Shown here: positions 19,957-42,128 of the stretch, one piece after another
Numbering within the stretch: position 1 is the first letter of the stretch
How the letters are laid out: each line of letters opens with the position of its first letter
Assembly: GCA_032622095.1 (NCBI GenBank)
Contig: CP136069.1
Location: forward strand, 3,251,566 to 3,315,565
Origin: Siphonodentalium dalli
Lineage: Eukaryota; Mollusca; Scaphopoda; Gadilida; Siphonodentaliidae
DNA length: 64,000 nt
Reading direction: 5' to 3'
Notes under the pieces: generated by a model
The model's input: only the letters and a program-made list of their open reading frames with translations
Databases searched by the model: none
What the model was told of the DNA's origin: nothing
Translations under genes and position numbers: made by a program

Positions 19957-20488
19957 ACTCTAGTGTCCCGAATAGAAGAACAGACCGGAATAGTAGTACA
20001 GGGTGGACGATTGGGCAAATTTCAATAATAGAAGACTGGAATAGAAGTACATGGCGGACAAATTCTTAGATGTCTCAATATTCGAACAAGCCGATCATTG
20101 GATATCAATCTGTCAAGCCTCCCTTGATATTTGCGGGTACTTGAGTGTCCAATAACTGAAATGGAATTCAAAGTCAATGACATCCAGTTTTCGATATCTA
20201 CCAGTACCAATACCGGTACATGTATTACTACGCTACTGGTACATGTACTATTAGTGGTAACTTTAGATGGGGTTGAGTGTCATGACATGGATGATTAATT
20301 GGCTGTTGCCAGCTGTGGCTTATAAATTTGTCAATAAAAAGCTACAGCTGGCAAATTTTATACGATTTAATATGTCAGATTGAAATTGAACAAAAATAAA
20401 CATATAGACCGGAATAACCTCATACAGGGCGGCAATTTTCATGAAAAAAAATTAAACATACACGTATGTTTATTCGGGACACTAGAGT
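19957..20488. mobile_element. TIR element with ACTCTAGTGTCCCGAATA ends, ASPM intron 2
   Basis: 18-bp perfect inverted ends (19957-19974 and 20471-20488). The interior repeats GAAyAG.CCGGAATAG.AGTACA wording. TSD not resolved. The right end is about 45 nt past the exon 2 donor. Confidence 0.75.
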
Positions 20489-20533
20489 AGTACTTTTGCA
20501 ATTGATTTATAGGTAAAGAAGTGGTTAATGTAC

Positions 20534-22463: not shown

Positions 22464-24304
22464 CTGAAAATATATAAAATACAGTACAGGCTATTAGTAA
22501 CTTGTTACTTGTTAATATTTAGATGTGAACATGAAGAAGGCCCTATTAAATAAAAGAAAACTGCTCCTTCACAATTATGAATTTCAAAAATAAGATATCA
22601 GTAAATTAATTATTTAAAGGAAAAATCAATACGAATATAAATTTATTTACAGAAAACTTAATACCTGTTCCATGTTATTTTTTTTTTATTAATTCACAAT
22701 GTTATTACCAGTACTAGTACATGTACAATAGCTTGTTTACAAACTTCAGGGAGAAATCTCTTGAAGATTTTTAAAAAACCCAGACAGGTCATTATGACAT
22801 ACCGATTGGCCATTATTCCACATGATCGCTGATCTTATATACCAGTACATGGAGTCATGGACATGTATATATTTACTTATAAAACCAACTGCAAGGCATT
22901 ATTTTCTCAATTTATATATTCTCATTTTCCAATTTTGGGAATTTATGACTAATTCAATTGGTGTCGCCTACTAGTACATGTACTATTATTGCCTAAATAT
23001 ATTTAAACCAGATGAGTTTTAAGCTCAATTTATGCATAATTTTATTCTAATCTTTTTCATTGTGGTTTTTAGTTTTTACAATAGTTATCTTGACCTTGTA
23101 AGCCAGTGCATTCTCTTATAAATGCGAGGCTCCCGTAGCATGGATAGGGAGCCTCATATATAACAGAATGCAATGTAGTGTACTCACTGTACTGGTACCT
23201 GCAGGATCTTTAAATGCAGGCTTTCCGCTAGTAGGGCAGGGGGTCCCTAGTTTAAGGGTCCCATTCCCACAGCCAATTTTTCCCCTTCTGTCATACCACA
23301 GGACATATTCCATATGTATAAAGATGTTTACTTCTCAATTTTGTTGGGACGGTGCTAAGAAATTTAAATAGTTGTCAACTTTATTTGATTTCTAGCGAGA
23401 ATACACACTTGGACCGATCTAACACTAAAAGTTGGATGTCAGTATGTCTGTAGGCCGGAGCTAACATTCAACGTGCAGGGTCAATGTGTTCCATTTAGAA
23501 TATAGAGTACACTTTATTTAGTTTTTACTGAAATGCTCTGGATTCTGAACGAGCACACACGGCTCTGCACGTTGCACACTAGTTAGCTCCAACCTGCAGA
23601 CACAGATGAACTGAGGAAGTGATCAAACCCGACATCGCTAGAACACATGCTTTGGAGTCCGCTGGTTACATTGCTGTGGTTAGGTTACGAAAAATGACGA
23701 TAATTTAATCATACCCATTGATTCTATCTTCATGTCATAAAACATATATATCACTCCATTTTTTTCAAAGCATCTTATCTACCGGTATGTTAATTTATTA
23801 TAATCTACTAGTAGCTTGATATTTAGAACTAAAACATTGCGCCTTTATTCTATTCCTTCATTGCTTCCAACCTGCTGAGTATTATATTCCGGCACGTTAT
23901 GCCTCCGAACTATCTGCCGAGTCTTGAATAGTGAGTCGTTTAACTTGGGTAGCATAGTAACTTGGGTAGAAAATGGATGCAAAACGATTAGCAAATCTAC
24001 TCTCTGATTCTTCTATTGGCCGATACAACAAAAGTAGGTCCACTAGTGCTCCCACGACATTGAAAACATTGACTGCATTTTCCCCTCAGTGGATACAGGA
24101 CCTGTTCCCCAAAACCTGGCGGAAAGCCTGTTTTAAAAAAAATGCATTAACATTTTCCAAAGGAGTTGGGCAGGTCTGACAGAAGAAACACACCTGTTTT
24201 TAATTATTTATAACGGTACATGGGCTAGCTAATTTGTTCGTAAATGATCGATTTGTAGGCGACACCAATTTAATTAGTTGGATTACGTTTTATTTGTTAC
24301 ATAC
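22464..24304 (-). other. ASPM intron 1
   Basis: 1841 nt, GT-AG, phase 0. AT-rich. It contains one diverged family H-like hairpin at about 23102-23166 (CCAGTGCATTCTCTTATAAATG...GGGAGCCTCATATATAACAG). No other exon-like sequence recognised. Confidence 0.75.
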
Positions 24305-24910
24305 ACCGTGCGATTTTTTGACGACAGGAGCTTCCACCACACCAAAGACGAATGCCTGCAATCTGTATACATTGTCTATGACAAAAAGGATCATCTCTCT
24401 GAAATTCCCAGGATCTTCAGGTGTCCATGTTATTTCCAGAGGATATGTGCCATCAGGTTCAACAAGAAAACATTTTTCTCCAACACTGAAGTTCTTCTTA
24501 AAAGGGAATTTTTCAATCTTCACCTCTTGAGTATAATCATGTGGATTTTTTATCAGGAGAGTTCTAAGTTTTCGATTCCCTTTCTTCATTTTTCCAAATC
24601 CCAATTTCGGTGAATTTGTAAAGTGGGTTAGCATCAAAACTTCCACTTCTCCTGAACTTCTACGTCTTTTTGTAGGTTTTGAATCAATTTTCTTGGGAAC
24701 ATCATCCTCAACTGCAATCTGTAGATGCTTTGTCGGTGGTGTGTCAAACCAAGATCTGCGATTTTTCTTGACAGACCTGTTCAAAGCATTGCTAACAGAT
24801 GCAGCATGCCCATCGCCAATACTTGCAACAGAAGTATCAAAAAGGAATGACCCATTAATACTATTGCTAGTGATGGAATTGTTTTGGTTATCCATACTGC
24901 TGCTGCTCAT
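24305..24910 (-). CDS. ASPM: ASPM exon 1: N-terminus and ASH domain
   Basis: This encodes the ASH (ASPM-SPD2-Hydin) domain, an immunoglobulin-like fold typical of centrosomal and ciliary proteins. Seen: LTHFTNSPKLGFGKM, then KIEKFPFKKNFSVGEKCF, LEITWTPEDPGNFREM and a closing VIDNVYRLQAFVFGVVEAP. These align through with vertebrate ASPM, including the WTP and FG-type turns. Upstream, SWFDTPPT resembles the vertebrate N-terminal WEVSPT. The donor reads GGT|gtatgt (phase 0). The start is uncertain. I chose ATG at 24910; a second ATG at 24895 has a better context (A at -3, G at +4). The frame stays open to an ATG at 25318, but that extension begins with an L/F-rich stretch that looks like an intronic pyrimidine tract. 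The ASH domain itself is secure; only the first few dozen residues are in doubt. Confidence 0.85.
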
Positions 24911-25318
24911 GTGTGTGGTCACACTCACAGGCAGATCCAGATCTTTGTTGAACTTGAAGCTATTGTTGTTTCCATCAAACTCAACATCCAGTCTCGATTC
25001 GAGATTGGCAATGTTTTTGTTTTTTATATGGAAGTCAGTAGAAAATTGCGAAAATCTATGGGATTTATATGTCTCCTTCGATTTACTGTTAGGATTTTTA
25101 TCGAAGATGTAGAAGTCACATTTAAAGCTCTTGACCAATGGAAATGGTGATTGTTCATTGACAAAACGAATGTTTACAAGAAATTTTCTTAGAAAATCGT
25201 GAATCAGAACGAACAAGCAGAAAAGCAGAGAAAGCGCAAATAAACAAAGCAGAATGACGAATATCTCAATGCGAAAATAAACAATAAATTCCAGAATGTC
25301 AACTTTTGTGCTTGACAT
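24911..25318 (-). other. Open extension upstream of ASPM exon 1 (5' UTR, intron end or extra coding)
   Basis: This is in frame with exon 1 and stop-free back to ATG 25318. The first ~45 codons translate to a very hydrophobic L/F/C/V run. A soluble spindle protein would not be expected to carry this, and at DNA level it is a T/C-rich tract (TTTCTCTGCTTTTCTGC and neighbours). The rest is N/K/S-rich without similarity that I recognise. Either it is 5' UTR, or it contains the 3' end of a first intron. A separate short uORF of 8 codons (ATG GAT GAT GGA..., about 25402 down to 25376) lies just upstream. Confidence 0.4.
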
Positions 25319-25379
25319 CAATTTCTTGTTTCAGAACATTCTTGAATCAAGCTTCTCTCAACGTGCATAACGTCTTCAG

Positions 25380-25470
25380 TCACCGGGGTCTCCATCATCC
25401 ATGTTGGATTCGAATCCAAATTTCGACCGTTTTCGAACCCAGCCAATCAGAATTGAAGATGAAAATATAT
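25380..25470. promoter_or_regulatory. Candidate ASPM core promoter with CCAAT box and TTCGAA (CHR-like) sites
   Basis: Just upstream of the ASPM 5' end there is a CCAAT box (agCCAATcag, about 25440-25449) within 50 bp of two TTCGAA words (about 25409 and 25433). CCAAT boxes next to CHR elements (TTTGAA/TTCGAA) are known to drive G2/M genes, including vertebrate ASPM, through NF-Y and MuvB/DREAM. The motif match is seen; the function is inference. No TATA box is evident. Confidence 0.35.
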
Positions 25471-26660
25471 GGACCAATTGTTAAAGTCCTTTGAAAGACA
25501 ACGTAGATCACATGATCAATAATGTCAAGGTTATGATTTAGATCACATGACCGATCATGTGATCTTGGGATTTTCCATTTTTCCTTGTTTTGAAAATGAA
25601 GGAAGACTCATCAGCTCATTGCACAAAACATGATATAACTTTGCATAACAATCCACAATGATGGACACCACACGAATTCGTTAAACAATGAACAAATAGT
25701 GTGCATATAAGCTGGACCTCGATAGTTATGGTAAACAATTAGCAGTTTATTGCCACAAAAAAGACATTCAAGTTCAACGATGAATTAGTTAGTCAACTAA
25801 GTGACGTTGCCAGTGGGAGTATTTGTTTATGATTTAGTATCGACGAACAGTCTTATTTGTTGTATTATGTCAATATTTCTGAAAATAATAAATTCAGCAC
25901 CTTTTAAACAGGCTAATCATCTCATGACTTATTCTGGTGGAAGCAGGACGTTTCGTAGAATACCTGAAGTCCGTAGTACAATACCATATGGTCGTTTCCC
26001 TGGAATTTTCATGCCATCTAGCTGGTTGTTATGCAGTTGTGATTAAAACCATACTCAGACTCTAAAGTATGGTTTTAATAAGAACTGGTCGTTTTGTCGC
26101 AAATTTTTTGCTTGTTTCGTACCAAGAGTCTGGACGTTTTCACGGTACCAGGGGAACTGGATGTTTCAAATTTCACAGAGTGAAGTGAATGTTATAAAAT
26201 TGTGTTTGTTTCGTTTGATGTTCCCAATCCTATAAATAAAATACTACTAGTATCTGGATCTGGGTTGATACGTCATATAGACCAATGGAAACGGGCCGGC
26301 TCGTCCCAGGGCCAACTCGGTCCACTCGACCTGGGCCAGCTAGGTCGTCCCGAGCCAACTCGCCCGGGCTGGCTCGGCCCAAGGGATACATGAAATTGAT
26401 GAAATGATGAAAATGTTCTAGACATAATGTTGTTTTACTTTCTTTATTTGTTCTTTTTCTTGTTTTTGTTGTTGTTTCTTTCTGGGATATTGCACTGCTT
26501 ATATACAATGTATCTGAAGTGTGAGCTGTGATTAGCAGAGTGGTAATAGCTACTGTGTAAACAACCTGTATATTGTTTTGATAGTATTGGGGACAATAAT
26601 AACCTCTATAAGGGTTTCCCAAATTTAACCCAGATATACAATGTAGTGAGATGAAGTTCA
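25470..26660. other. Intergenic; GC-rich motif cluster at 26287-26390
   Basis: Mostly unremarkable AT-rich DNA. The 100-bp cluster at 26287-26390 is C/G-rich with repeated GGCCAACTCG / GAGCCAACTCG / GGCTGGCTCGG words; related words recur at 28741-28780. Near 25728-25730 an ATG is followed directly by GTAAAC, one weak candidate for the missing SLC31 first exon. Confidence 0.4.
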
Positions 26661-26667
26661 TAACTCA

Positions 26668-28531
26668 GGCCTAAACAAAAAATACGTTTGTTTCCGCTAA
26701 CCCGACCGACCCTATTTTAAACCGCCGACCCTAAACTTTTTATTGCCATTGCAAAAAAAAAAAAATTGGACCAAAAAAACAAAAAAAACAAATTTGATTT
26801 AAAATTTTTTTTTTTTAATTTAGGTCCCAATTCATATCATAACAAGATGCAAAACATTTATATATTTATATATATTGACATAAGAAATTTAAGTTTACAA
26901 AAAGATTTAAGTTTAACAGTTGGAATCATACTGTAAAGTATGTTTGGCTTTATCTAGCTTTCATCTGTGAAAACTTCAAATAATTTGAGTTCAGGTACAG
27001 TATGTTATCATTCAGCGTTCAGACTTCAGTATTTCAATCAATTACAGCACAGGAACATTAACAATTTGATCAAATCAACCTGGTTATCAAGTGGGATCTC
27101 ATAATACCAAATGAAAAATTAACATAGAGATTAGTACCATATATAGTCATTACTATCTTAATACATGTACATTGTTTCTGTACTACATGTACATGTAGGA
27201 TTTCTGTATTACATGTACATGTAGTATATTATGTACAGTATGTGTCTCACTTGAATTTTATAAAATAGCCTATTTATGAATTAGAGTGATGATGGCAAGT
27301 CTAATTTCAAGCAGGATAAGGCTTCCGATAAGCATAATCCATAGAACCAAAAGATATCTGACAATAACTTATAAGCATTTCCAATCCATACATATATAAA
27401 AAGTTCCAAAGTTATGCTTGAGAAACTCTCTGTAAAATTCAAAATACTGACTCAAAGAGCCTTAGATTAGATCTAAATGCAATGGATTTTCAAAAAATTT
27501 CCAGGGGAAGAACCCGCACCATCATCAGGGGGTCACCCTTCCCAAACATTCCTCCGATCAGGCCTTCAGGTTATGTCATATCATTGCCCAAAAACAGGTG
27601 TCCCCAAAAAATACCTAGATCCTTCACTGAATGCGGAGAAGGTGGTGTTGTGAAGCCATCCTTAAGAGATCGGTACAAGACGGTCACTCCAATATGTGAA
27701 CAGTGCAGTGGTGCTGGATTGACTCCAGTTGTCGCCAGACCATATAGGAAATATTAGGATTATCAAAGACTATCTTAGTATATAGACTAGTATATATGTA
27801 AATATTAAAGCATATGTAAGATTGAATTGGAGTTTCTAGTTCCTCTGTCATCTGGGTTAACCTGATTGGGGCTAAGAAGTGCATAGTTTGGGTTATTGAC
27901 AAGTATTATACAGTTATTTTTAAAGATACTGAAAAAAAAAAAATTAACAAAAAAAAAGAAGTTAAAGGCACGTGCGGCCTTAATGGTCGAAAATATTCAT
28001 ATTTGTTCCAAACACCGTAAACAGAAAAAACAGTAAAACGCATACAGTTCCGTTCATATATACCATGACCATCGCGTAAACAGCATGTTATCATAAAGAC
28101 CTACTATATTTTACCTAAGCAATAGCCTGATTGTGTTACAAAAGACAGCACAATGCTACTGGCTAATCACACACAAATGGCATAAACGCTCTTTATTAGT
28201 TCCATATCAGGTATTCACCAACAAAGAACGCTCTTTATGTTTACCATCATAATATAAACAAACACCAGAAAAGTAACTTTTTACGCATTTGTTTACATAA
28301 CAATGGTCAAACATATGACCATAAGATACTGTTTATGCGATATTTCTTATTTGTATACGGACAAAGTCTATCTACATTTTGATGTAGTTTATGTTTGTAG
28401 CGGTTTTGGACGGGTGGAGATATTTTCACAGGATACCCACCGCCAAGGCCAACCGTGTCTTTAAGCCTACCTACCTACCCTAATTTTTTTTTAGCTCGTT
28501 AGCGGAAACAAAGGTATTATTTGTTTAGGCC
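26668..28531. mobile_element. PIF/Harbinger-like element, copy 2
   Basis: Same TIRs as copy 1, TSD TCA (26665-26667 and 28532-28534). It lacks the 650-bp nested element of copy 1 but carries its own insertion (27966-28460). Confidence 0.8.
27966..28460. mobile_element. 495-bp TTAA-flanked MITE nested in Harbinger-like copy 2
   Basis: TTAA at 27962-27965 and 28461-28464. Imperfect ends AGGCACGTGCGGCC and GGCCAACCGTGTCT. Copy 1 has a single TTAA at this place (AAGTTAAGCCTACC), confirming the insertion. Confidence 0.85.
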
Positions 28532-28559
28532 TCATAGAGAATAAGGGAATATGAAAACA

Positions 28560-28640
28560 GTTCATTATTGTTATTTATGAATTTGCCGGTTTGAACGAGT
28601 AACCTTCTCGTTCAAACCGACTAATGTGATTACTGGCTAT
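28560..28640. repeat. Short inverted repeat GGTTTGAACGAG
   Basis: GCCGGTTTGAACGAGTAACC followed by CTCGTTCAAACCGAC. A 12-14-bp arm hairpin; nothing else seen here. Confidence 0.5.
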
Positions 28641-29139
28641 TATCTTTGTAAACAAAAGTGCCTAAATTTTAGTAGTCTAAATATCAAAATTGATGGAAAA
28701 AATTCTGAAATATATATTAACTTTACACAAATTCAATTCCCGGACCAACTCGGCCATAAAAGCTGGGCCAGCTCACTCCAAAAAAGTGTCTGGACCAATA
28801 TTGGCATTATCATGATGGGATGGGGTGCGCTAGATGTTTGCGTCCAAATAGTTCCGGAGTTCTTCCACGAACCACAGTGATCCAAGGACTTCTCTCCTAG
28901 TTTTTTCCAGTAAATGATTGTATTCAAATGAATCAAATTATTGTATAATTACAGGTACATGTACTTGTACTCTTCCTAGGGATGTGGCAACCGGGTTGGG
29001 TGTCAGTCGGAGTCCCAATAACTTTTATAAAAGTAATATTGGACTCGATTTGATTGATCACGTGACTTAAATCACGATTCAAGTCAATGATATATTTTAT
29101 TTAAATCATGATAAAAAGTCAAGAACTGCAATATCTAAC

Positions 29140-30950
29140 AATGTTTCTGTAAACTACTAGTAGATATGATTAAACAATATACAAATTGGATAATAGATAT
29201 GAAATTGTACTGTAATTATCAACCCTATAGCGCCTACTGCATGGTACCGTATATACGGCTCCCGCAAATGGCCTGTTCCCCTTAGCATTGTTAGTATTGT
29301 TTGCAACTACACTATTTAATTATCCCCCGCCAAATGAAATTCATAACTTGAACAAATCTCAATGGATTTCAAAGATATTTGGTATATGAGTTCACTTGAC
29401 CAGTATCTAGAAGGAGTTCGCAAACCAGGTCCGGCCGGATATTTTAAGCGGATTTATTGGACTTTGTTTATTTTTGTGAGTGCAAATGGATGATGTCACA
29501 GGGCTCATTTCCACAAATGTCAACAGAATTCAAAGATTTTTGGTATATTCGTTCCCATGACCAGTACCTAAAATGAGTTCGCAAGCTAGGCTTTGTGACA
29601 AAATTCCACCTCATGTTTAGCGCATACTGAGAACGCAAACATTATTGAGAATGCACTTCCCCAACTGCACAATTCGGTGGGGGATACCGCCATCTGCGAC
29701 TGCCTGTTCTCTTTCTTTTTCTGATTGCCGTACATGTAAATACTAACTAAGTAACTCTACTATATACTCTGCCATTTAGCTACTCTAGTTATCTAGTGCC
29801 TATACTCAATATATGGTGTGATTACCGTCGCTTGGAGCAAACAGGATTGTTAATATTAAGTTTTCAGTGAAAATTGAATAAATTTATAAGTAAAAGTTTA
29901 AACACAGGTCTACATTTCCAGATATCACAAAATATGGAACCCAATGGACCTAAGGGTATGCATAAAGAACATTTGGGAGGCCAAATTCACATTTAATAAT
30001 GAATTACGCTTAACTACTATTTAACCTACCCCTAAACTATTGGCATGACCTGGTGTATCACCTAGCAACACAAGAGGAGCATTGGGCTGATTATAACTTG
30101 TTTTAATTAGCCTGAGTACCGTACTCAAGTCAACTGTGAGAATATGTACAGCAATGATAATTACATATTATCAGAATCCCTATATCAAAAGAATTGATGT
30201 CTCCTTCCCGGAACTCTAGTATTTTTTATATAATTTTTTATAAGTATTTTTGCACAGATTTGGGCCACTATGGTAATATAGCATGCATGTGGTGTCACTT
30301 AATGAGGGCTTGCTTACCTCATATGGTTTACTTATTGACTGGAAACATTGAAGAAAATCACAGTTGCCCCAACTAATACAGAAGGTAATGCTTCTGCAAG
30401 TTGCCCCAACTACACTGCCATGATATTTGGGTTTGATTGGTATACCAAAAATATTGAATACTAATACAAAAATTTAAAATCATAAAATTCTGATTAATCC
30501 AGCCTTGGATATAATAAACAACACCTTTCAGAACCTTCATTTATCAGAGAAATGGTACAATTACATACTTTCATATTTAAACAGTTATAAAAAAAATAAA
30601 AAGAATCGATTTAAATAAAAAAAATCTTTATTTAAATCAAATAAATCAATTTTTTTTATTTATTTTTAAAAATTAAAAAAATTGCCAACCCTGAGTATGA
30701 CTGTTTCCCGGAATATCATGTGACGGCTTTTGACCAATCAGAAATACATGTAGTGTTAATTAGTGAAGGGATGGATAATATTATTGTTATATACATGTAG
30801 CTTGTTTATATTAATAAACAGCCCATTGTACATGTATATGAGTTAGTGTTTATCCTTTGAGTGCCCCCTCATTTCCTGATACATAGGGTTAATTAGATTC
30901 TGAAGAACATAAATGTTTTTACCAACATGTCGATGGAAAACATTGAGCTC
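29140..30950. repeat. Old dispersed repeat, related to 3620-3860 plus 4920-5340
   Basis: Two blocks match the region around the hAT insertion: 'attaaacaatatacaaattgga..gaaattgtactgtaatt' with the TACATGTAAATRC context, and 'ctgccatgatatttgggttt...gattaatccagc.ttggatat'. Copy 2 has 600-700 bp of extra DNA between the blocks but not the hAT element. No coding recognised. Confidence 0.55.
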
Positions 30951-30957
30951 TAACATA

Positions 30958-31162
30958 TACAGTAATGCCTTAAGTAATCGACCCCTTAACCACAGCAGAA
31001 TTATGGGTAACTTTTCAGAATTTAGTCGGAAATATGGCTTGTTGCTTTGCTCGGGGAGAGCTTTCCGATGAATGGCAACAAGCCATATTTCCGACTAAAT
31101 CCTGAAAAGTTACCCATAATTCTGCTGTGGTTAAGGAGTCGATTACTTAGGGCATTACTGTA
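30958..31162. mobile_element. Family M foldback MITE
   Basis: Full copy, TACAGTAATGCCTTAAGTAA to GGGCATTACTGTA, centre GAGAGCTTTCC. Confidence 0.9.
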
Positions 31163-31504
31163 CATGTACCGTATACATGTATGTAATGTGTGAAAAATGA
31201 CTTGGAGAAATGTTTTGAACACGTTAATAGGATCACTTCTACATGTAGATGGGACTCCTAAAATATGAACCATTTTTGATGAAAAACATGGCTGCCGGCA
31301 GCCATCATGGATTTTACTCTTTCCATGACTAAATATTTCAGCACATCCTCCAGCCAACATTTTTAATTTAATTCTTCATCCAATTGATCCCAAACTTCAT
31401 ATGACTCTTTGAGTTGACCTCTGGTTTTTCCATAAACATTTAAACATTCGCTCCATTGCTGTAATGGATGACAAAATATCCCTTCTTCAAGTTGAGCTTC
31501 AGTC

Positions 31505-31925
31505 AAGCCTGCAAATAGCGTGTCTGTCATTTGCAGAATGAGGTCCTCAGAGGGTGAGTTTAGTGATGCTATCCCGCATCACCAAATTCACCCTCTGGAG
31601 ACCTCATTCTGCTTAGGCCTCATCTTCTGGGAAGTATCTACAGTATCAAATTAACATTGTTTTTAGTTTTCCCTTCTGGGAAGTTTCTACATGTATATCC
31701 CCTAATTTGCAGCAGATAAAATGCATAATCGAGGTGCCCAATGGGTGAACATCACCAACTTCAACTGGGGAACTTCAATCTGATCCTAGGTCTACCATAG
31801 CAGTTGAGGGCCTAAGCAGAATGAGGTTCCCAGAGGGTGAATTTGGTGATGCTAGCCCGCTATGCGGGGTAGCGTCACTAAATTCACCCGCTGGGGACAT
31901 CATTCTGCAAATGACAGACACGCTA
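31505..31925. repeat. Family G foldback repeats (two copies)
   Basis: Family G is GTGTCTGTCATTTGCAGAAT, GAGGTCCCCAGAGGGTGAAT, TTAGTGATGCTAGCCCGC and then its inverse. Copies lie at about 31515-31617 and 31812-31926, in opposite arrangement around a unique segment with TTCAACTGGGGAACTTCAAT, forming one composite element. The same composite recurs at 38140-38620, 44065-44510 and 58815-59500. Confidence 0.75.
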
Positions 31926-32001
31926 TTGATACTTTTATTCTTAACAGCATCGCATGTCTCATTGAGAATTCCTCTTCCAAATGTTATCCCTCTTTTTACA
32001 G

Positions 32002-32074
32002 GGTTTGTACTTCACATTTGGTGACACATTGAAGAACTTCATCTTCGAAGGAATTAATATAGCTTCCACTGATG
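32002..32074 (+). CDS. SLC31A: SLC31 (CTR copper transporter) exon: extracellular N-terminus
   Basis: A 73-nt exon between acceptor cctctttttacag|GGTTTG and donor GATG|gtatga, entering in phase 0 and leaving in phase 1. It reads GLYFTFGDTLKNFIFEGIN and then IASTD. This corresponds to the pre-TM1 ectodomain of CTR proteins, such as MxFxFSDTxxLLFDFWxVxS in CTR2. The Met normally two or three residues before this point must come from a short upstream exon that I could not identify. The short ectodomain without a Met/His-rich tail favours the CTR2 (SLC31A2) type, though that depends on the missing exon. Confidence 0.75.
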
Positions 32075-32280
32075 GTATGATTATTTATATTATAAACTAC
32101 AACACAATATACCCATAAGGTGCATGCTGCTAACTATGTGGGGCTCCATGTGGGTTACATTCAGAGGGTTAACTCTTCCATGACTGGAGCTTCCTGAAAT
32201 TTTGCAATGTGCCAATGCTTTCTCTTATTTATGCGAATCTCCCATATCAAATCCAGTCGTAAGTCGGGATTTTTTTACCC

Positions 32281-32355
32281 TGTGCCAATGCATTCTCTTA
32301 TATATGCGAGTCGACCATAGGTCGCCTCGCATATATAAGAGAATGCATTGGCTTA
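32281..32355. repeat. Family H hairpin, SLC31 intron
   Basis: CCAATGCATTCTCTTATATA...GTCGACCATAGGTCGCC...its inverse, near perfect. Confidence 0.88.
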
Positions 32356-32790
32356 ACAATTGTTTATCATTTTTTTTAAATAAATGTTTCTTACAATTTT
32401 TAGGACATAAAATAAAAAAAAACATCCATTACCCTGCAGGGAGCCCCACACATATATAGAAGCATATAGAAGAGTGTTGTCTGCTCATGTTTGTCTGGGG
32501 CTCTGTATGGGTGAAATTATAAAATACATTGGCCTAACAAAATTTACATTGACTGTATAAGTCAGAGAATGCACTGGCACAGGATATTTATTGCTGCACC
32601 AGCGCAGCTCCCATCAGGAAAGGGTTAAATTATACATGTATATATCTGGAGTCTTGGTCTTCATTTATTAAACTCACATTATGTCTGAGATACAGTGGAA
32701 GTTTGAAAATGATCAACTTTTTGTGTAACTTTCTCTGAACCCAAATTCTGGAATTTGTTTCCTTTTACCCTGTCTTGGTGATAAGGGCCC

Positions 32791-33269
32791 CATTTGTGTT
32801 TTTGCAGATCTCATTGTGGTTGTGATTGTTATGACGTTGCTGACGATGACATTTGTGTTTTTGCAGATCTCATTGTGGTTGTGATTGTTATGACGTTGCT
32901 GACGATGACATTTGTGTTTTTGCAGATCTCATTGTGGTTGTGATTGTTATGACGTTGCTGACGATGACATTTGTGTTTTTGCAGATCTCATTGTGGTTGT
33001 GATTGTTATGACGTTGCTGACGATGACATTTGTGTTTTTGCAGATCTCATTGTGGTTGTGATTGTTATGACGTTGCTGACGATGACATTTGTGTTTTTGC
33101 AGATCTCATTGTGGTTGTGATTGTTATGACGTTGCTGACGATGACATTTGTGTTTTTACAGATCTCATTGTGGTTGTGATTGTTATGACGTTGCTGACGA
33201 TGACATTTGTGTTTTTGCAGATCTCATTGTGGTTGTGATTGTTATGACGTTGCTGACGATGACATTTGA
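32791..33269 (+). repeat. 59-bp tandem array (8 copies) duplicating the SLC31 TM1-exon 3' splice site
   Basis: Each unit is CATTTGTGTTTTTGCAG followed by the first 42 nt of the coding exon (ATCTCATTGTGGTTGTGATT...TTGCTGACGATGA). Acceptor Gs lie at 32807, 32866, 32925, 32984, 33043, 33102, 33161 (variant ACAG) and 33220, exactly 59 bp apart. Each unit also has a branch-point-like TTGCTGAC about 22 nt before the next AG. The array is bounded on both sides by CATTTG (GCCC|CATTTG and GATGA|CATTTG|AAGC), which suggests duplication at a 6-bp microhomology. Confidence 0.96.
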
Positions 33270-33425
33270 AGCTGCGAAACTAATAATGTTATATATTGAT
33301 CTCAAAAGAAAACAGGATCCATTGACGTACGGGCAAACCGATCGAATGGACAGGGTGGATGGGTCAGGTATTAACATGAGTTCTCTACTAATCCCGTCAA
33401 ATGAAGCAACAATACGTCGCAAAAA
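33221..33425 (+). CDS. SLC31A: SLC31 exon: TM1 and cytoplasmic loop
   Basis: A 205-nt exon, acceptor tgtgtttttgcag|ATCTCATTG and donor AAAAA|gtgagt, phase 1 to 2. It encodes DLIVVVIVMTLLTMTFEAAK, the first transmembrane helix with the CTR-family ending (A/F)(Y/F)E(G/A)xK. A long basic and polar cytosolic loop follows, including LIMLYIDLKRKQDPL and SSLLIPSNEATIRRK. The acceptor and the first 48 nt of the exon are the last of eight copies of a 59-bp tandem repeat (32791-33269). Only the last acceptor (33220) keeps an open frame. All seven earlier ones read through TTTGTGTTTTTGCAG into a shifted copy and stop at TGA. Confidence 0.83.
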
Positions 33426-33450
33426 GTGAGTAATTTATAAGTTACACTGA

Positions 33451-33951
33451 AATGGACACCTTTAAACTACCCGTATGGAGCCCCTCACAGACGTGAGCAG
33501 ACGACACTCAGCAATACAAGCTGCCACCTGTATGGGGCTCCCTACAGGAAGCTCCAGTCATGGAAGGGTTAATACAGTTTTAGTTGCTGGGATTTTACAG
33601 GTTTTAACATTAAATGGACACCTTTAAACTACCCTTATGGAGCCCCTCACAGACGTGAGCAGACGACACTCAGCAATACAAGCTGCCACCTGTATGGGGC
33701 TCCCTACAGGAAGCTCCAGTCATGGAAGGGTTAATACAGTTTTAGTTGCTGGGATTTTACAGGTTTTAACATTAAATGGACACCTTTAAACTACCCTTAT
33801 GGAGCCCCTCACAGACGTGAGCAGATGACACTCAGCAATACAAGCTGCCACCTGTATGGGGCTCCCTACAGGAAGCTCCAGTCATGGAAGGGTTAATACA
33901 GTTTTAGTTGCTGGGATTTTACAGGTTTCAACATTAAATGGACACCTTTAA
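33451..33951. repeat. 162-bp tandem repeat (three full units and a broken fourth)
   Basis: Unit starts AATGGACACCTTTAAACTAC...; starts at 33451, 33613, 33775 and 33937 (period 162). The unit contains GGAGCCCCTCACAGACGTGA...TGTATGGGGCTCCCTACAGG, itself an imperfect hairpin. The fourth unit is split by the element at 33952-35512 and resumes at 35513-35650. Confidence 0.95.
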
Positions 33952-35512
33952 CACGTTGAGTGCCGGAAATCAATTAGTAATCTCGCCAGTTTGCCAAATC
34001 GTGGCAAGATAGATACCCGTAGTAGACCATAATTTGGATGACGTCGCGACTTTAGATGACAGAAACGGCGATTGATAGTACTACGAGATAACTCGTAGCC
34101 GGCAATGGCGGAAGGAATTTGGGTATTCCCACCACCAGTGCCAACTACGAGTTATCTCGAAGACACAATTGGACACGTTTGACTCTTTGAGCAACAAATA
34201 TGAAGTAGAATGTAACCAAAACAAGTTATTTTGGTGGTCAGCATATTGATGGAGGTGTGTGTGTCCTTGTGGTGGTTATAGCTCGTTATATAGTTATATT
34301 ATGGCTGATGCACGCTGGAGAAAATTACTTATATGAGAATGCATGGCTACAGACGGTGAATCCGACGTGGAATCGGGTGAACTTGTTTCCTGTGAGGATG
34401 AGTTTATTTCATCCATGACTACGAGCATGCATATTTACGAGCATGCATCTTCTGTTGTTTCGGGCATTGTAAGTTATCTCCCATATAGCCTGATTTAGGC
34501 CTATGCTAGGGTTCCAAAGTACAGCCCGAAATAATAGTGTAGGAAGATTTGTCAGCACAAAATTAAAGCAACGATGCAACAGTAGCTAAATAGATCCCTG
34601 TATATTCAGGAGTGTGCTACATGTAACGATTCCATATAATCCATCCGTCTGGAAATAAGTTACCCTTACCCCAAACCCCTATGCTACACAAAACCATTTA
34701 TCCGTATATACATGTGGAACAGTTCGATGAACTGCATGACGTCTAGAGTACGGTAATTGTTATGCTTTCCATTGTCCAACACGTTCGGAAGAGGGTACAA
34801 TGTAGCTTTGGGGAATAATTGTTCCGCTTTACTTGAATTATAAATAATAAAATACCTAGCCCCCAAATGGAGCCGCACAGTGTATTCCAAAAACAACTGC
34901 TGTGTTCCCTAATAATGAGATAATGGTAGCATCAATGTGCGTAACGTCATGGATTATCCGCTTGTCTTGTATTGGATGCGTCCATTCGCACATGCATGCG
35001 CGGGAACAGATTTGGCAGGCCTGTGTGACATGTATGGGTGGTTGTGCGAAGTTTCTATGTATTGAAACACAACGATGTAACCATCATTCCTCGAAACTGC
35101 CTTCGCATGTTTGTACATTGTGAATATCCACCTCCTGACTGTGTTTGCAAGCTTGCATGCACAATATCAGTCTATTGAATACCAAAAACCCAATCCAATT
35201 GTCCACACACGACTGCCTCTGGCGGTCACTCATTGAGACAGTGTCAGCTGTATTCACTCACAACTGGATCATTTTGAGTAGAATATATGTGCTCATGGTG
35301 CTCACCTCTGTTGAACAATGCAAGGAGAGCCACACTATTTATTTGATAAAATCACTGTTCTGATGTCCCGATGCGGGTTTTCGTGGTGCATCGACATATT
35401 CCACTGCTTCCGTTTGTCAGTTACACGACATGGAAACCACTACGAGATAACTCGTAGTGGCAACCTGCGAAGGTTGCGTACTACGAGATAACTCGTAGTG
35501 GCACTCAACGTG
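33952..35512. mobile_element. 1.56-kb piggyBac-like element inserted in the 162-bp array
   Basis: TTAA TSDs at 33948-33951 and 35513-35516; TIR CACGTTGAGTGCC and GGCACTCAACGTG. The target TTAA is intact in sister units (CACCTTTAAACTACC). Subterminal palindromes CTACGAGATAACTCGTAG occur near both ends (34079-34096; and two copies at about 35440-35500). An acidic open frame starts at about 34345 (MATDGESDVESGELVSCEDE...) and ends at a gtaagt. It resembles an acidic transposase N-terminus, but no catalytic DDD region is recognisable. Confidence 0.88.
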
Positions 35513-35650
35513 TTAAACTACCCTTATGGAGCCCCTCACAGACGTGAGCAGATGACACTCAGCAAAACAAGCTGCCAAATGTATTGGGCTCCCTACAGGA
35601 AGCTCCAGTCATGGAAGGGTTAATAAAATTTTAGTTGCTGGGATTTAACA
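35513..35650. repeat. Remainder of the fourth 162-bp unit
   Basis: Continues TTAAACTACCCTTATGGAGC... after the insertion to GTTGCTGGGATTTAACA, slightly more diverged than the other units. Confidence 0.9.
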
Positions 35651-35822
35651 TAATAATCGACTCCTTAACCACCGCAGAATTAGGGGTAACTTTTCAGGAT
35701 TTGGTCGGAAATATGGCTTGTTGCCATTCATCGGAAAGCTCTCAGTGAGAGCTTTCCGATGAATGGCAACAAGCCATATTTCTGCTGTGGTTAAGGAGTC
35801 GATTATTTAGGGCATTACTGTA
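35646..35822. mobile_element. Family M foldback MITE (internally shortened)
   Basis: Left end truncated (starts ATAATCGACTCC), centre GAAAGCTCTCAGTGAGAGCTTTC, right arm lacks the ATCCTGAAAAGTTACCC part, ends GGGCATTACTGTA. Confidence 0.85.
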
Positions 35823-35934
35823 GTTGGGTACCCAGCTTTTTAGCTCAACTTTACTTTGTAAAGTTTGAGCTTTTGCCATGGCTTTGTCGTCCATCGTGCG
35901 TGTGTGCGTGCGTGTGTGCATGATTCGTCAACAA

Positions 35935-37335
35935 TTTCTTTTAGCACGGGCTACAGGTTTTACCTTTGGTCGGATCTTTATAAAATTTGTCATGAAATTC
36001 GTCATGGATGTTAGTATTGACATGTAGATGGGAACGAGTAATTTTGGGGTCATTCGGCCAAAAAACATGGCCACCAGCAGCCATCTTGGATTTTACTCTT
36101 TGCATGACTAAATTGTTTTGGCACGGGCTACAGATCCTACCTTTGGTCGAATCATAATGAAATTTGTCATGGATGTTAACAATGACATATAGATGGGAAC
36201 GAGTCATTTTGGGGTCATTCGGCCATAAAACATGGCTGCGGGCAGCCATCTTGGATTTTACTCTTTGCATGACTAAATCCTTTGGCACGGGCTACAGGTC
36301 ATACCTTTTGTTGGATCATTATGAAATTTGTCATGACATTGACATGTAGATTGGAACGAGTCATTTTGGGGTCATTCGGCAAAAAAACATGGCCGCCAGC
36401 GGCCATCTTGGATTTCAAAATTCAATCCATTGGCACGGGCTACAGGCCGGAGTGTTTGTTTGATCATCATGAAATTTGTCATGGAAGTTAATATTGACAT
36501 GTAGATGGGATTGAGTAATTTTGGGGTCATTCGGCCAAAAAACATGGCCGCCAGCAGCCATCTTGGATTTTACTCTTTGTATGACTAAATCCTTTGGCAC
36601 AGGCTACAGGTCGTACCTTTGGTCGGATCATCATGAAATTTGTAATGGATGGAACGAATCATTTTGGGGTCATTCGACATAAAAACATGGCCACCAGGAG
36701 CCATCTTGGATTTTACTCTTTGCATGACTAAATCCTTTGGCACGGGCTACAGGTCGTATCTTTGAACGGATCATTATGAAATTTATAATGGCTGTTGACA
36801 TTGACATCGAGATGGGAACGAGTCATTTTGGGGTCATTTGGCCAAAAATCATCGCCGCCAGCAGCCATCTTGGATTTTAATCTTTGCATGACTAAATCCT
36901 TTGGCACGGGTTACAGGTCGTACCTTTGGTCGGATCATCATGAAATTTATCATGAATGTTAACAATAGCACGTAGATGGGAACGAGTCATTTTGGGGTCA
37001 TTCATTAAAAAAACCAGTGGCCATCTTGGATTTCATAATTCAATAAATTAGCACAGACTACAGGCCGGAGTGTTAGTCTGATCATCATGAAATTTGTGGT
37101 GGAAGTTAATATTGACACGTAGATGGGAACGAGTCATTTTGGGGTCATTCGGCAAAAAAACATGGCCGCCAGTGGCCATCTTGGATTTCAAAATTCAATC
37201 CATTAGCACGGGCTACAGGTCATACTGTTCGTCTGATCATCATGAAATTTGTCATGGATGTTAATATTGACATGTAGAGGGGAACGAGTAATTTTGGGGA
37301 TATTCGGCCAAAAAACATGGCTGCCAGTCACATTC
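35935..37335. repeat. Degenerate tandem repeat of about 150-160 bp, roughly nine units
   Basis: Each unit has GGCACGGGCTACAGGTCRTA, ATCATGAAATTTGTCATGGA, AACGAGTCATTTTGGGGTCA and CAGCCATCTTGGATTTTACT. Units are diverged and some have deletions. Preceded by a TGTGTGCGTGCG tract. Widespread type in marine invertebrates; the frames through it are not genes. Confidence 0.85.
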
Positions 37336-37665
37336 ATTTAAAATTGGAAGTTGTCATGATATAAATTAGATATGAGGAAAGTTACCTGCATTTCAATCAA
37401 AGCTTGCTAGTGTTATATGAACTACATTGTATATGAAACATATGAATGGTAATTCCAAGTGACTGATCGCTCAGAAACAGGCTGATGTTATGACGTAAAT
37501 GTTTGCATCATTACGTGTGATGTTTGCATCACTACATGTGATGCTTGCATCACTATGCGTGATGCACATTCCTGATAGCGTTGTGTTTCTCAGTTAAGTG
37601 AGAAAACAATGGAATAGTTGAATTCGCGGAACAAATAAAAAATAATAATTATGGCATAAATAAAT

Positions 37666-37802
37666 ACACGCATAGTAGCCGAGAGTAAAAAAAATTCACC
37701 ACTTGTGGAATTGTGGTTTTAACCACTCGCCAAAAGGCTTGTGGTTAAAACCATAATTCCACTCGTGGTGAAAATTTGGTATTCTCGGCTACTATGGGTG
37801 TA
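37666..37802. mobile_element. Foldback TIR element (family T)
   Basis: TACACGCATAGTAGCCGAGA...CACTTGTGGAATTGTGGTTT...AACCACTCGCC, AAAAGGC loop, then its inverse ending TCGGCTACTATGGGTGTA. Near-perfect ~65-bp arms. Related elements at 40200-40395 and 40870-40990. Confidence 0.8.
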
Positions 37803-37869
37803 TTCTATATGCCCACATATTTAGGGCATCACTCTACTATTGCCCACACTAGGTCATATGCCCAGCTCT

Positions 37870-37950
37870 CGTTCTTTTTAGATTGCACGGGGGCTATTTC
37901 AGTCATATGGTTACTATTTTATGAGGTCCCCTCTGTTTCAATCTTTTTAG
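37870..37950 (+). repeat. Decayed duplicate of the SLC31 TM2-exon acceptor
   Basis: TTCTTTTTAG|ATTGCACGG..GGCTATTTCAGTCATATGGT..TACTAT at 37872 parallels ATCTTTTTAG|ATTGCAG...GGTTATTTTGTTCACATGGT..AACTAT at 37941, offset 69 bp. Similarity about 70-75%, so an old duplication. Confidence 0.55.
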
Positions 37951-38066
37951 ATTGCAGTATTTGACGGCAGGTTATTTTGTTCACATGGTAACTATGTTCG
38001 AAGGATACATCCTGATGTTTGCTGTGATGTCGTATAATGCATGGCTTTTGCTTGCTGTTATAATCG
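37951..38066 (+). CDS. SLC31A: SLC31 exon: TM2 with MxxxM motif and most of TM3
   Basis: A 116-nt exon, acceptor atctttttag|ATTGCAG and donor ATCG|gtatgt, phase 2 to 1. It encodes LQYLTAGYFVHMVTMFEGYI, then LMFAVMSYNAWLLLAVII. The MFAVM segment is the MxxxM copper-selectivity motif of TM2. AVMSYNxW is the CTR signature shared with human CTR2 (LAVMSYNTW) and related to FMTYNGYL in CTR1. The nearer AG (gattgcag|TAT) would enter in phase 0 and break the join, so the upstream AG at 37949-37950 is used. A decayed copy of the same acceptor and exon start lies 69 bp upstream. Confidence 0.92.
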
Positions 38067-38139
38067 GTATGTAACACATTTCCACAGTACCACATAAGCT
38101 CTGGTCAGCCCAGATATTACTTTTTTTTAAACAAGGCTT

Positions 38140-38620
38140 GAAATAGCGTGTCTGTCATTTGCAGAATGAGGTTCACAGAGGGTGAATTTAGTGATGCTAT
38201 CCCGCACAGTGGGCTAGCATCACCAAATTCACCCTCTGGGAACCTCATTCTGCTGAAGCCTCAACTGCTATGTGAGACCTACATGTACATGTACAGATCA
38301 AGGCAAAACCTGAGTGTAGAATAAAACTGTGATCATTATGTAGTTATTGTAGTGTATCATTTCAAAATCAAGTAATGTAAACTCAAGGTTTTTTTTAAAC
38401 ATTCCAACAATAAATACATTGTGTACATCTCAAATACAAAGCTGGAGTATTATTATTGGGGTAGCATCACTAAATTCACCCTCTGAGAACCTCATTCTGC
38501 TTAGGCCTCATCTTCTCTGGCAAGTTTCTTTATCATAACCTGATGTGCAGGTTAATGTCAGTATATTCACCCTCTGGGGACCTCATTCTGAAAATGACAG
38601 ACACACTATTTCAAGACTTG
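38140..38620. repeat. Family G composite (two foldback units)
   Basis: Copies at about 38142-38262 and 38455-38615 around a non-matching core. Lies in the SLC31 last intron. Confidence 0.75.
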
Positions 38621-38674
38621 ATTTTAAAGATGGTTTAATTGTCTCTTCCCTGAAATTTTTGTAACATGATCACA

Positions 38675-38840
38675 TACAGTAATGCCCTAAATAATCAACT
38701 CCTTAACCACAGAAGAATTATGGGTAACTTTTCAGGATTTAGTCGGAAATATCGCTTGTTGCCATTCATCGGAAAGCTCCTGAAAAGTTACCCATAATTA
38801 TGCGGTGGTTAAGGAGTCGATTATTTAGAGCATGACTGTA
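38675..38840. mobile_element. Family M foldback MITE
   Basis: TACAGTAATGCCCTAAATAA to CATGACTGTA; the right arm is shortened. Confidence 0.87.
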
Positions 38841-38992
38841 CTCTACAATAGTATTAACAGTCATTGTGAACAAAAATTGTTAATCACCTTTGTTGTAGGT
38901 ATGAACGTTTCCCATACGTTTTGAACTGCGAAGTGTATAGGCTCTATATCCACCATGGTGGTTCATACCAATCCGACCACGCAACATAAAGA

Positions 38993-39449
38993 CCCTGTGC
39001 CAATGCATTCTCTTATATATGCGAGTCGACCATAGGTCGCCTCACATATATAAGAGAATGCATTGGCCTAACAATTTTTTATCAATTTTTCTTACATTCT
39101 TTAACAATATTTATAATTTTATATCATTTTTTGTTACAATACGTACATTCTATAACAATTTTTATTTTTATTTTTTTATTATTTTTTCTTCCATTCTATA
39201 GGAATTTTTATCATTTTTTTTATCATTTTTCCTTACATTTTTTAACAATTTTTATCATTATTTCTTTAATATATTCTTTAACAATTTTTATCATTATTTC
39301 TTATATTCTTTAACAATCTGTATAATTAAAAAAAAAAAATTCTTACATTCTTTAACAGTAAAAATGATATAAAATTTGTTAGGCCAATGCGTTCTTTTAT
39401 ATGGTCCTATGGTCGACTCACATATATAAGAGAATGCATTGGCACAGGG
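38993..39449. mobile_element. Paired family H hairpins around a T-rich core
   Basis: CCCTGTGCCAATGCATTCTC...hairpin, about 300 bp of repeated TTTAACAATTTTTATCATTTTT, then an inverted damaged hairpin ending GCATTGGCACAGGG. Same arrangement as inside the P1 and P2 MITEs but without their outer ends. Confidence 0.75.
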
Positions 39450-39539
39450 TTTTCACATTTTGTGATATAGCTACAGTAGGTACTTTCAAATTGCCATGTT
39501 ACAGTAACTCTGTGGGGAAATAAAGATCAAAGTCGACAT

Positions 39540-39935
39540 GTTAAAGACATATTATGGACTTGTTCAAGTGCGATAAACTTATAAGTGCGATAAACTTATA
39601 AGTTAATAAACAGCCGCTATGCCAACCTGGAGAATGCATAATTCTAATACATGTAAGATCACCGAAAATTTCAAATGAATTGAACATACCACTCCATAGA
39701 AAACATCGTCTGAACTACGCTCAATTGTAAATATTTACATGTCAGTTTGGGACGCAACAATCGGCGATAAACTACACAAAAGATTTTGCTATCTAGTGTC
39801 ATTGCATTTAATTAATATATGTAAGAATGACTGTGTGTGTTGTCAATTTGAATTAATATTCGTAAAAAAATAACTACTTTGAGCAAGATCATTCTCCATA
39901 TCTATTTGATCACTCTAACGGAGTGATTCACATCA
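39540..39935. repeat. Dispersed repeat, second copy of the 2140-2420 family
   Basis: See 2140-2420; this copy has a duplicated GTGCGATAAACTTATAA and an extra 90-bp AT-rich insert before CATTCTCCATATCTATTTG. Confidence 0.6.
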
Positions 39936-40199
39936 CTTTAATAAAAAAAAAACACTAGTTATACTTTCATAAATCGATGATATTATGTGACAAAAAAATA
40001 AATAAATTTTAATAGCTTTTTTATACACTTTCACAATTCCCTCAGGTTTCATATCCCTTCGCCAGGTAGCAGCACTGATGTACTAGTACTGAGTTGCCGG
40101 GGGTCCACAGAGGGTTGAAGCGTTGACAAATTTGTTCGATTTTTTAAGTTCTAACTTTCCAATATTATTCTTGTTGGTAGGATTATGGTATAATCATAA

Positions 40200-40395
40200 T
40201 ACACTCGTGTGGTAAACATAATACATGCGTGTGGTAAACATAATACATGCGTAGTGTTTCTGAATACCAAATTTACACCGCTCGAGTCATGGGATTGATG
40301 ATTTACCACACGAGCTTTGGCGAGTAAATCATCAATCCCATGAGTTGTGTAAATTTGGTATTCAGAAACACTATGTGTGTATTCTATATTTATAA
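40200..40395. mobile_element. Foldback element
   Basis: ATGCGTAGTGTTTCTGAATACCAAATTTACAC...ATGGGATTGATGATTTAC mirrored by GTAAATCATCAATCCCATGA...TAAATTTGGTATTCAGAAACACTATG. Loop is CACACGAGCTTTGGCGA. Confidence 0.8.
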
Positions 40396-40879
40396 CATAA
40401 TTGGCTGTTCTATTGTGTGTATAACACCCTTTTTGTAAACTTCATCTTTACACCCTACTGTGGGTATACAGTTTCCTTCTGTGGGTATACATTTCTACTG
40501 TGGGTGTAAATGTTCTAACGTAATTTCATGTGTTAAACGTGTATGACTATAGTAGAACTACATCTGTGTATGACTATAGTAGAACTACATCATAGTTAGC
40601 AAAATTATGTCTTATGTCACATACATTTAAAATAGGAAGTTGTCATGATATCAATTAGATATGAGGAAAATTGCCTGAATTTCATTCAAATGTAGCTTGG
40701 TTGTGCTATATTAACTAGGAAACATATGAATGATAATTCCAAGTGACGGATCGCTCAGAAACGGGATGACGTCATGACATTAATGTAAGCATCACTACAC
40801 GTGACGCACAGTCCTTATAGCGTCATGTTTGTGTATCTGGGTGAGGATACACATTCAAAGTAAACAGCGGGGTAGTTCC

Positions 40880-41475
40880 CCGTTCGTGGTATTGTGGTTT
40901 TAACCGCTCGCCAAAAGGCTCGTTGTTAAAACCACAATTCCACTGATGCTGAAAATTTGGTATTTTCGGATACTATGCGTGTATTCTATATATATTTGGT
41001 ATTTTCGGATACTATGCGTGTATTCTATATATATTTGGTATTTTCGGATACTATGCGTGTATTCTATATATATTTGGTATTTTCGGATACTATGCGTGTA
41101 TTCTATATATATTTGGTATTTTCGGATACTATGCGTGTATTCTATATATATTTGGTATTTTCGGATACTATGCGTGTATTCTATATATATTAGTTGGTAT
41201 TTTCGGATACTATGCGTGTATTCTATATATATTATTTGGTATTTTCGGATACTATGCGTGTATTCTATATATATTTGGCATTTTCGGATACTATGCGTGT
41301 ATTCTATATATATTATTTGGTATTTTCGGATACTATGCGTGTATTCTATATATATTATTTGGTATTTTCGGATACTATGCGTGTATTCTATATATATTAT
41401 TTGGTATTTTCGGATACTATGCGTGTATTCTATATATATTTTGTATTTTCGGATACTATGCGTGTATTCTATATC
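40880..41475. repeat. 39-bp minisatellite (13 copies) grown from the end of a family T element
   Basis: Unit TTGGTATTTTCGGATACTAT plus GCGTGTATTCTATATATAT, 39 bp, some units +2 or +3 bp. The first unit is the right terminus of a foldback element (40887-40990) whose relatives at 37802 and 40390 have only one such terminus. The 179-codon open frame through it is a by-product of the 39-bp period. Confidence 0.93.
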
Positions 41476-41541
41476 AGAGGTTTAGAATAATAATTATGAG
41501 TTGAGGTCCAGACCTAATTTACTAGACAAGTTTTGTAAATT

Positions 41542-41866
41542 CTGCATATCGATTTCAGTATCACGTCCGGTTAATATTTTACAGGTATATCGATTTCAGT
41601 ATCACATCTGGTTGATATTTTTCAGGTAGCGGCTTATCGATTTCAGTATCACATCTTGTTGATATTTTTCAGGTAGTGGCTTATCGATTTCAGTATCACA
41701 TCTGGTTGATATTTTTCAGGTAGCGGCTTACCGATTTCAGTAACATGTCTGGTTGATATTTTTCAGGTAGCGGCTTATCGATTTCAGTATCACGTCTGTT
41801 GATATTTTTCAGGTAGCAGCTTATCGATTTCAGTATCACGTCTGTTGATATTTTTCAGGTAGCGGC
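41542..41866 (+). repeat. 46-47-bp tandem array (7 copies) duplicating the SLC31 last-exon 3' splice site
   Basis: Unit TTATCGATTTCAGTATCACR plus TCTGGTTGATATTTTTCAG|GTAGCGGC, carrying the acceptor and the first 8 exon bases. Acceptor Gs at 41584, 41625, 41672, 41719, 41766, 41812 and 41858. ATCG flanks both the left start (catATCGattt) and the exon continuation (ggcATCGgtt), a 4-bp microhomology. Every upstream acceptor leads to an in-frame stop within 1-2 units. Confidence 0.94.
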
Positions 41867-42019
41867 ATCGGTTACTTCATATCAGCTGTCATCGGACAAA
41901 AAATTACAATGAAATACTCAGGACTCAATTCATCAATTGGAAACCAATCGTCAGTGAATGAAACAGACCAGACTCCGCAGTATATGGTTTACGATGCTGC
42001 TGGTAATGATATATCATAG
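41859..42019 (+). CDS. SLC31A: SLC31 last exon: end of TM3 (GxxxG) and C-terminal tail
   Basis: The acceptor ttgatatttttcag|GTAGCGGC (41857-41858) joins in phase 1 to give IIG-SGIGYFISAVIGQKI, so the GSGIG stretch provides the GxxxG helix-packing motif of CTR TM3. A polar tail of about 35 residues follows (...TPQYMVYDAAGNDIS) and stops at TAG 42017-42019. The His-Cys-His end of CTR1 is absent, again more like CTR2. The four exons found total 184 codons plus stop, close to the family's usual 140-190. The acceptor is the last of seven tandem copies (41542-41866). No clear AATAAA follows closely. Confidence 0.87.
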
Positions 42020-42128
42020 CAGTCAATCAAATCATCAAACCGAATCGTTGGTGAACGAGGAACTACATAATACGTGATGAATAATGTTATTTGTTACTTG
42101 TTTGGATGAAATTGCAATCAGCTACATC

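Follow-up and report, generated by a model that had tools for sequence, protein, structure and literature searches.

How does a gene splice correctly when the 3' splice site of one of its exons is present eight times in succession? The question is raised by a stretch of the Siphonodentalium dalli genome of 64,000 nucleotides (contig CP136069.1; the whole stretch analysed is called the window below), in which the end of an intron and the beginning of the following exon have been multiplied together. We describe the array and the gene that carries it, compare it with other duplications of exon boundaries in the same genome, and then weigh which of the eight acceptors is likely to be used.

The array and its host gene

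The gene lies on the plus strand and was modeled with four exons. Exon A (32002..32074), which reads GLYFTFGDTLKNFIFEGINIASTD, has a phase 1 end; the start may be an in-frame ATG located 5' of it, at 31981. Exon B (33221..33425) encodes TM1 and is followed by a GTGAGT donor at 33426, exon C (37951..38066) encodes TM2 with the motif MFAVM and has a GTATGT donor at 38067, and exon D (41859..42019) encodes TM3 with GSGIG and closes with a TAG stop at 42017-42019. When the last of the available acceptors is taken for exons B and D, the four exons join with GT-AG sites into a single open frame of 184 codons that ends at that stop. MFAVM in TM2 and GSGIG in TM3 have the forms MxxxM and GxxxG, which we take to be the signature motifs of CTR proteins. 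The same four-exon model matched the Pfam Ctr profile with E=1.2e-19 (71.8 bits, the cut-off being 25.3) over positions 2-150 of 151, and the solved CTR1 structure 6m97 was matched with E=4.9e-5. Assignment of the gene to the SLC31/CTR copper transporters is thus supported at the level of the predicted protein.

SLC31/CTR transporters have a Met/His-rich N-terminal ectodomain. The window gene shares the full Ctr domain and both motifs with the family; for the N-terminal metal-binding exon, a simple scan of 25301-31990 gave no convincing candidate. A search for protein homologs of the model returned 90 candidates, none with E<=0.001. As this search brought up no CTR relative whatsoever for a query that Pfam recognizes, its silence is weakly informative. 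Scans of the 64-kb window against Rfam (at the gathering threshold) and for tRNAs gave no match.

Array 1 occupies 32791..33268 on the plus strand and is composed of eight 59-bp units (32791-33262) arranged head-to-tail, followed by the partial unit CATTTG (33263-33268); the preliminary description had placed its end one base farther on, at 33269. Each of the eight units joins the last 17 nt of the intron (CATTTGTGTTTTTGCAG) to the first 42 nt of the TM1 exon and so contains the exon-intron boundary. The acceptor AGs end at 32807, 32866, 32925, 32984, 33043, 33102, 33161, and 33220, exactly the 59-bp spacing first reported. The eight copies had also been called perfect, which holds for seven of them: units 1-6 and 8 are identical, and unit 7 carries a single G>A substitution that converts GCAG to ACAG. 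The Tandem Repeats Finder (TRF) score of 949 at 99% match means that the units do not resemble one another by chance. When the TM1 exon with its acceptor was used as a DNA query against the 2.23-Gb assembly of nine contigs, with a search program that skips very common words, eight matches were obtained, all inside the array 1 locus, and no DNA paralog of the TM1 exon was found elsewhere in that search. Together with the Pfam Ctr match, this anatomy upholds the original reading of the repeat as a 3' splice-site module in front of an SLC31/CTR TM1 exon.

The word CATTTG was seen at both edges of the array, as the preliminary description had it: one copy opens the intron-end segment, and the next follows 59 bp later, past the exon start. 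One misalignment between these two words could have given the first duplication, and slippage or unequal exchange could then have extended it to eight units. Given CATTTG words 59 bp apart, a founder duplication at a 6-bp microhomology, proposed at the outset, would still be the simplest founding event. The near identity of the units points to recent spread or homogenisation.

Several other features of the window are recorded here as observations in their own right. A 162-bp repeat of 3.1 copies (33450-33951) begins 25 bp past the end of exon B, and two other arrays in the window, both on the minus strand, contain an acceptor-like motif. An ASH domain (ASPM-SPD-2-Hydin; E=1.1e-19) is encoded on the minus strand at 24290-25330, perhaps as part of an ASPM-like gene, and the same strand carries a 683-codon open frame without a Pfam match (20439-22490). 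Two copies of similar frames (LRLDLNAMDFQKISRGRT...) are found at 18487-18909 and 27422-27757, each downstream of a copy of the same 26-bp repeat (17653-17714 and 27175-27236, respectively); frames and repeat together are perhaps a dispersed mobile element.

Boundary duplications elsewhere in the genome

The array before exon B had been treated as singular, which did not hold. A second array lies in the same gene: array 2 (41547..41866, plus strand) consists of seven units of ~47 bp, ends at the exon D acceptor and has GATTTCAG and (T/A)CAG|GTA in each unit. There are at least two CAG sites per unit, and all 14 decoy CAGs lead to a stop before TM3, although decay of the resulting mRNA is less certain than for array 1, since exon D is possibly the terminal exon. 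The CAG|GTA of all seven units is a candidate acceptor and donor in every unit. With gaps counted, the units show 1-11 differences among themselves and, being more diverged than those of array 1, are probably older. In three paralogs at C9:80 Mb exon D has the same intron position; the 60 bp read upstream contain a single acceptor, and no direct repeat overlaps it, which means that array 2 either is particular to the window gene or was lost there.

The paralogs came from a search of the assembly for the Ctr family, which gave 10 matches including the window gene, and the surroundings of the matches were retrieved. In the paralog at C9:80.00 Mb (L009/L010) the TM2 acceptor falls inside a 593-bp duplication that is exact on both sides of the compared point, over 400 bp upstream and 95 bp downstream, and two sister paralogs are single copy at the same acceptor. 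The paralog at C9:5.18 Mb (L015, 8649-9045, minus strand) has its TM1 acceptor in a 66-bp unit of 2.4 copies, in frame and free of stops, and its TM1 donor in a 44-bp unit of 3.2 copies; a 50-bp piece of its next exon recurs 136 bp upstream, within the intron. In the CTR set, 4 of 15 exon matches from nine loci have five junctions in repeats, a count to be read with its sampling in mind: the set is not random, the TM1 exon at C9:5.18 Mb was found by tandem-repeat overlap and reading, and the TM1 exons of the other paralogs are absent from the count. The junctions of the window gene were checked by a tandem-repeat placement test and those of the paralogs by a listing of up to 12 repeats per locus, a number that no paralog reached.

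Myosin-head exons served as a rough control, with 16 loci that we picked among the 85 matches listed. A 67-bp duplication of the donor was present at two of the 16 (C4:288.89 and C4:291.68 Mb; L061 and L070), which are paralogs of each other, and none of the 16 exon loci had a duplication across an acceptor. A myosin peptide from the assembly scored best with the scallop chains 2ec6 and 2os8, at 111.9 bits, narrowly ahead of vertebrate chains at 109.8 bits. Protein-kinase exons proved unusable as a control, the 30 loci being near-identical uninterrupted frames of one cluster. At C2:149.83-150.59 Mb we observed more than 80 near-identical uninterrupted protein-kinase frames, many of them spaced by ~2.4 or 2.9 kb.

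Array 1 is one of several boundary-spanning duplications in the Siphonodentalium dalli genome, and these affect donors as well as acceptors. Within the window gene, their placement is not above chance. Tandem repeats cover 23% of the 64-kb window and 36% of 32002-42019, and two of the seven junctions lie in repeats; with random placement the probability of at least two of seven is ~0.51 for the window and 0.79 for 32002-42019. An overlap of junctions and repeats above chance was thus rejected, two of seven being expected at such cover, and selection can be inferred in neither direction.

Choice among eight acceptors

Direct joining of exon A to any of acceptors 1-7 ends in a stop (TGA after ...MTFVFLQISLWL) in all seven cases, and in the frame analysis acceptor 8 is the sole open route from exon A by direct splicing. 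Exon B is 205 nt long from acceptor 8 and 264-618 nt from acceptors 1-7, and the decoy stops fall 187-541 nt upstream of its end. Under the 55-nt rule for nonsense-mediated decay, mRNA made from acceptors 1-7 would probably be degraded. The claim that any earlier AG leads to a stop therefore stands for direct splicing but fails once an extra intron is allowed. With a minimum intron of 30 nt and any GT accepted as donor, one extra intron inside array 1 gives 21 in-frame bypass routes, all ending at acceptor 7, and two extra introns give 522. Seven kinds of GT hexamer occur in the array, none of which fits GTRAGT (the closest is GTGATT), and the in-frame bypass routes are disfavoured because their donors are poor.

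The decoys can hardly be told from the productive site by their surroundings. Over a span of 62 nt upstream and 48 nt downstream of the site, acceptors 2-6 are identical to acceptor 8 and acceptor 7 departs from it in a single base; acceptor 1 shares the 48 nt downstream and, on the upstream side, 17 nt. Because the context of acceptors 2-7 is nearly identical to that of acceptor 8, the productive site is not favoured by local sequence; it is set apart by its position. Inverted repeats, which might hide the decoys, were also listed: 32001-33500 contains six pairs. Four of these lie entirely in the upstream intron, the other two (22 nt at 82% and 14 nt at 86%) enclose exon B with one arm in the intron on either side, and none of the six has an arm inside array 1. 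In the region of array 2 (41400-42100) no inverted repeats were found.

Candidate branch sites were assigned by motif and distance. The candidate original site, TTGGTGAT (32775..32782, plus strand), has an A that precedes the end of the acceptor 1 AG by 26 nt, and it lies 439 nt from acceptor 8, with seven AGs between. A second candidate, TTGCTGAC, is found upstream of each of acceptors 2-8, in agreement with the branch-point-like sequence noticed earlier from the second acceptor on, and it was formerly coding sequence. Its A precedes the AG end by 23 nt, and the copy that would serve the productive acceptor (33191..33198, plus strand) belongs to the exon-derived part of unit 7. By these two measures TTGCTGAC is a plausible branch site, and if acceptor 8 is used, former coding sequence has probably come to supply its branch site.

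The explanation that we consider likely is that array 1 is a passenger minisatellite, founded at the 6-bp microhomology, and that splicing goes mostly to its last copy through exon definition. The long introns on either side of exon B (1146 and 4525 nt) would cause splice sites to be paired across the exon. Acceptor 8, the nearest to the donor at 33426, would then be favoured and copies 1-7 would be removed as intron. With the original candidate so far upstream and all seven decoy AGs in between, the productive reaction would now depend on a branch site in former coding sequence, the TTGCTGAC of unit 7. Excerpts of a survey of human splice sites (PMC9225289) bear on this in two ways: with long flanking introns the sites closest across the exon are favoured, and between 3' splice sites separated by 20 nt or more the upstream one is preferred overall, a preference that exon definition merely reduces. 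From the two rules together, splicing mostly to acceptor 8, with leakage, is expected. As the same excerpts have long introns reducing the upstream preference and no more, sizeable use of the decoys is possible. Since decoy use would lead to an early stop and probably to degradation of the mRNA, the array most likely has no regulatory role and is carried as a tolerated passenger that leaks to some extent.

A regulatory role is nevertheless the strongest of the alternatives, although we regard it as unlikely. Use of the decoys would scale with how many there are and give early-stop mRNA, and array length would act as a copy-number rheostat that sets copper-transporter output. The geometry is that expected for nonsense-mediated decay, with all seven decoy stops separated from the exon B end by 187 nt or more, acceptors 2-8 hardly differ in local context, the human data as excerpted favour the upstream 3' splice site (PMC9225289), and array 2 would add its 14 decoy CAGs, each with a stop before TM3. 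These points have to be set against the placement of the arrays, which is not above chance, and against the single exon D acceptor of the three paralogs (60 bp read), which gives no sign that array 2 is conserved. Moreover, the lancelet arrays discussed below are reported, in the excerpts of PMC3087553 and PMC3902484, to leave splicing undisturbed.

Less probable still is that decoys pair with donors located within the array, which would create new small introns in the manner of intron gain by tandem duplication. Precedents exist in a potato RdRp gene (PMC4974935) and in human boundary repeats (PMC2812944), both taken from excerpts, and the 21 in-frame routes with one extra intron, all to acceptor 7, as well as the CAG|GTA of all seven array 2 units, would suit such a scheme. 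The GTs of array 1 argue otherwise, as none fits GTRAGT and GTGATT is as near as they come, and the products would gain extra residues before TM1. An equally slight chance is given to the gene being a pseudogene or dead allele, its array a mark of lost splicing. The first coding exon that the scan of 25301-31990 did not find and the lack of a database protein at E<=0.001 would fit such a gene. An open frame that runs through all four exons, bounded by GT-AG sites and encoding a complete Ctr domain with both MxxxM and GxxxG, would not, and a protein search that returned no CTR relative at all says little by its silence. An inflated or miscalled repeat number can be all but dismissed: misassembly of near-perfect tandem repeats does occur, but array 1 is just 472 bp long, has a single-base variant inside it (unit 7), and is accompanied by further boundary duplications elsewhere, some of them diverged.

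Relation to known boundary repeats

By comparison with published cases, array 1 is of the kind described in lancelets as 'mirage' minisatellites. According to excerpts of PMC3087553, mirages occur in the lancelet globin genes BflGb6 and BflGb9 and in Adh3; that paper cites Adh3 units of 10-72 bp and somatic instability, and the Adh3 data together with its own RT-PCR suggest regular splicing. Excerpts of PMC3902484 describe imperfect repeats in PGBD5 and cite TnC as a mirage gene. The likeness lies in minisatellite-like tandem duplications across the intron-exon boundary, at 3' and 5' junctions, with an authentic copy kept. In array 1 the copy at the edge keeps the gene intact at the level of the frame, as acceptor 8 alone opens the Ctr frame by direct splicing. 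Unit lengths overlap, with 10-160 bp given for lancelet mirages in the excerpts and 44-67 bp plus one case of 593 bp in S. dalli. Array 1 differs in having eight units, seven of them identical, and in its host, an SLC31 gene of which a further acceptor carries an array of its own.

Boundary repeats are not always silent. In human genes, as excerpted from PMC2812944, internal tandem repeats at exon-intron boundaries form novel introns, with 27 intron modifications, in paralogs. These repeats resemble array 1 as minisatellites at exon-intron boundaries that are able to alter splicing. They differ from it in forming novel introns, whereas the units of array 1 are acceptor modules without a good donor. 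A boundary duplication in the potato RdRp gene (excerpts of PMC4974935) likewise copied a candidate branch site together with the pyrimidine tract, the AG, and the first part of the exon, and it gave a new intron by activating an exonic GTAAG donor; the exon-derived segment of array 1 has no such donor, none of its GTs fitting GTRAGT. Tandem dual-specific splice sites are described for human UBC in excerpts of PMC10809524, a case alike in that splice sites are multiplied within a tandem repeat. Array 2 comes close to it with CAG|GTA in each unit, whereas the CAG|ATC site of array 1 cannot be a donor and its 59-bp period is no multiple of 3.

The shared context of decoy and productive acceptors makes the locus a natural test of 3' splice-site choice. 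Productive mRNA is predicted to be nearly all of the product if position across the exon decides, almost none if position along the intron decides, and about one-eighth if the choice is left to chance.

A wider claim strikes us as improbable: that minisatellites across exon boundaries are pervasive beyond lancelets and work as copy-number rheostats in which each added acceptor diverts more transcripts to an early stop. Were it true, copper-transporter output would vary with unstable array length from one individual to another, or even among somatic cells. The recurrence of boundary duplications in this one scaphopod genome suggests that they can be tolerated, as the junction is restored every time by the outer copy.
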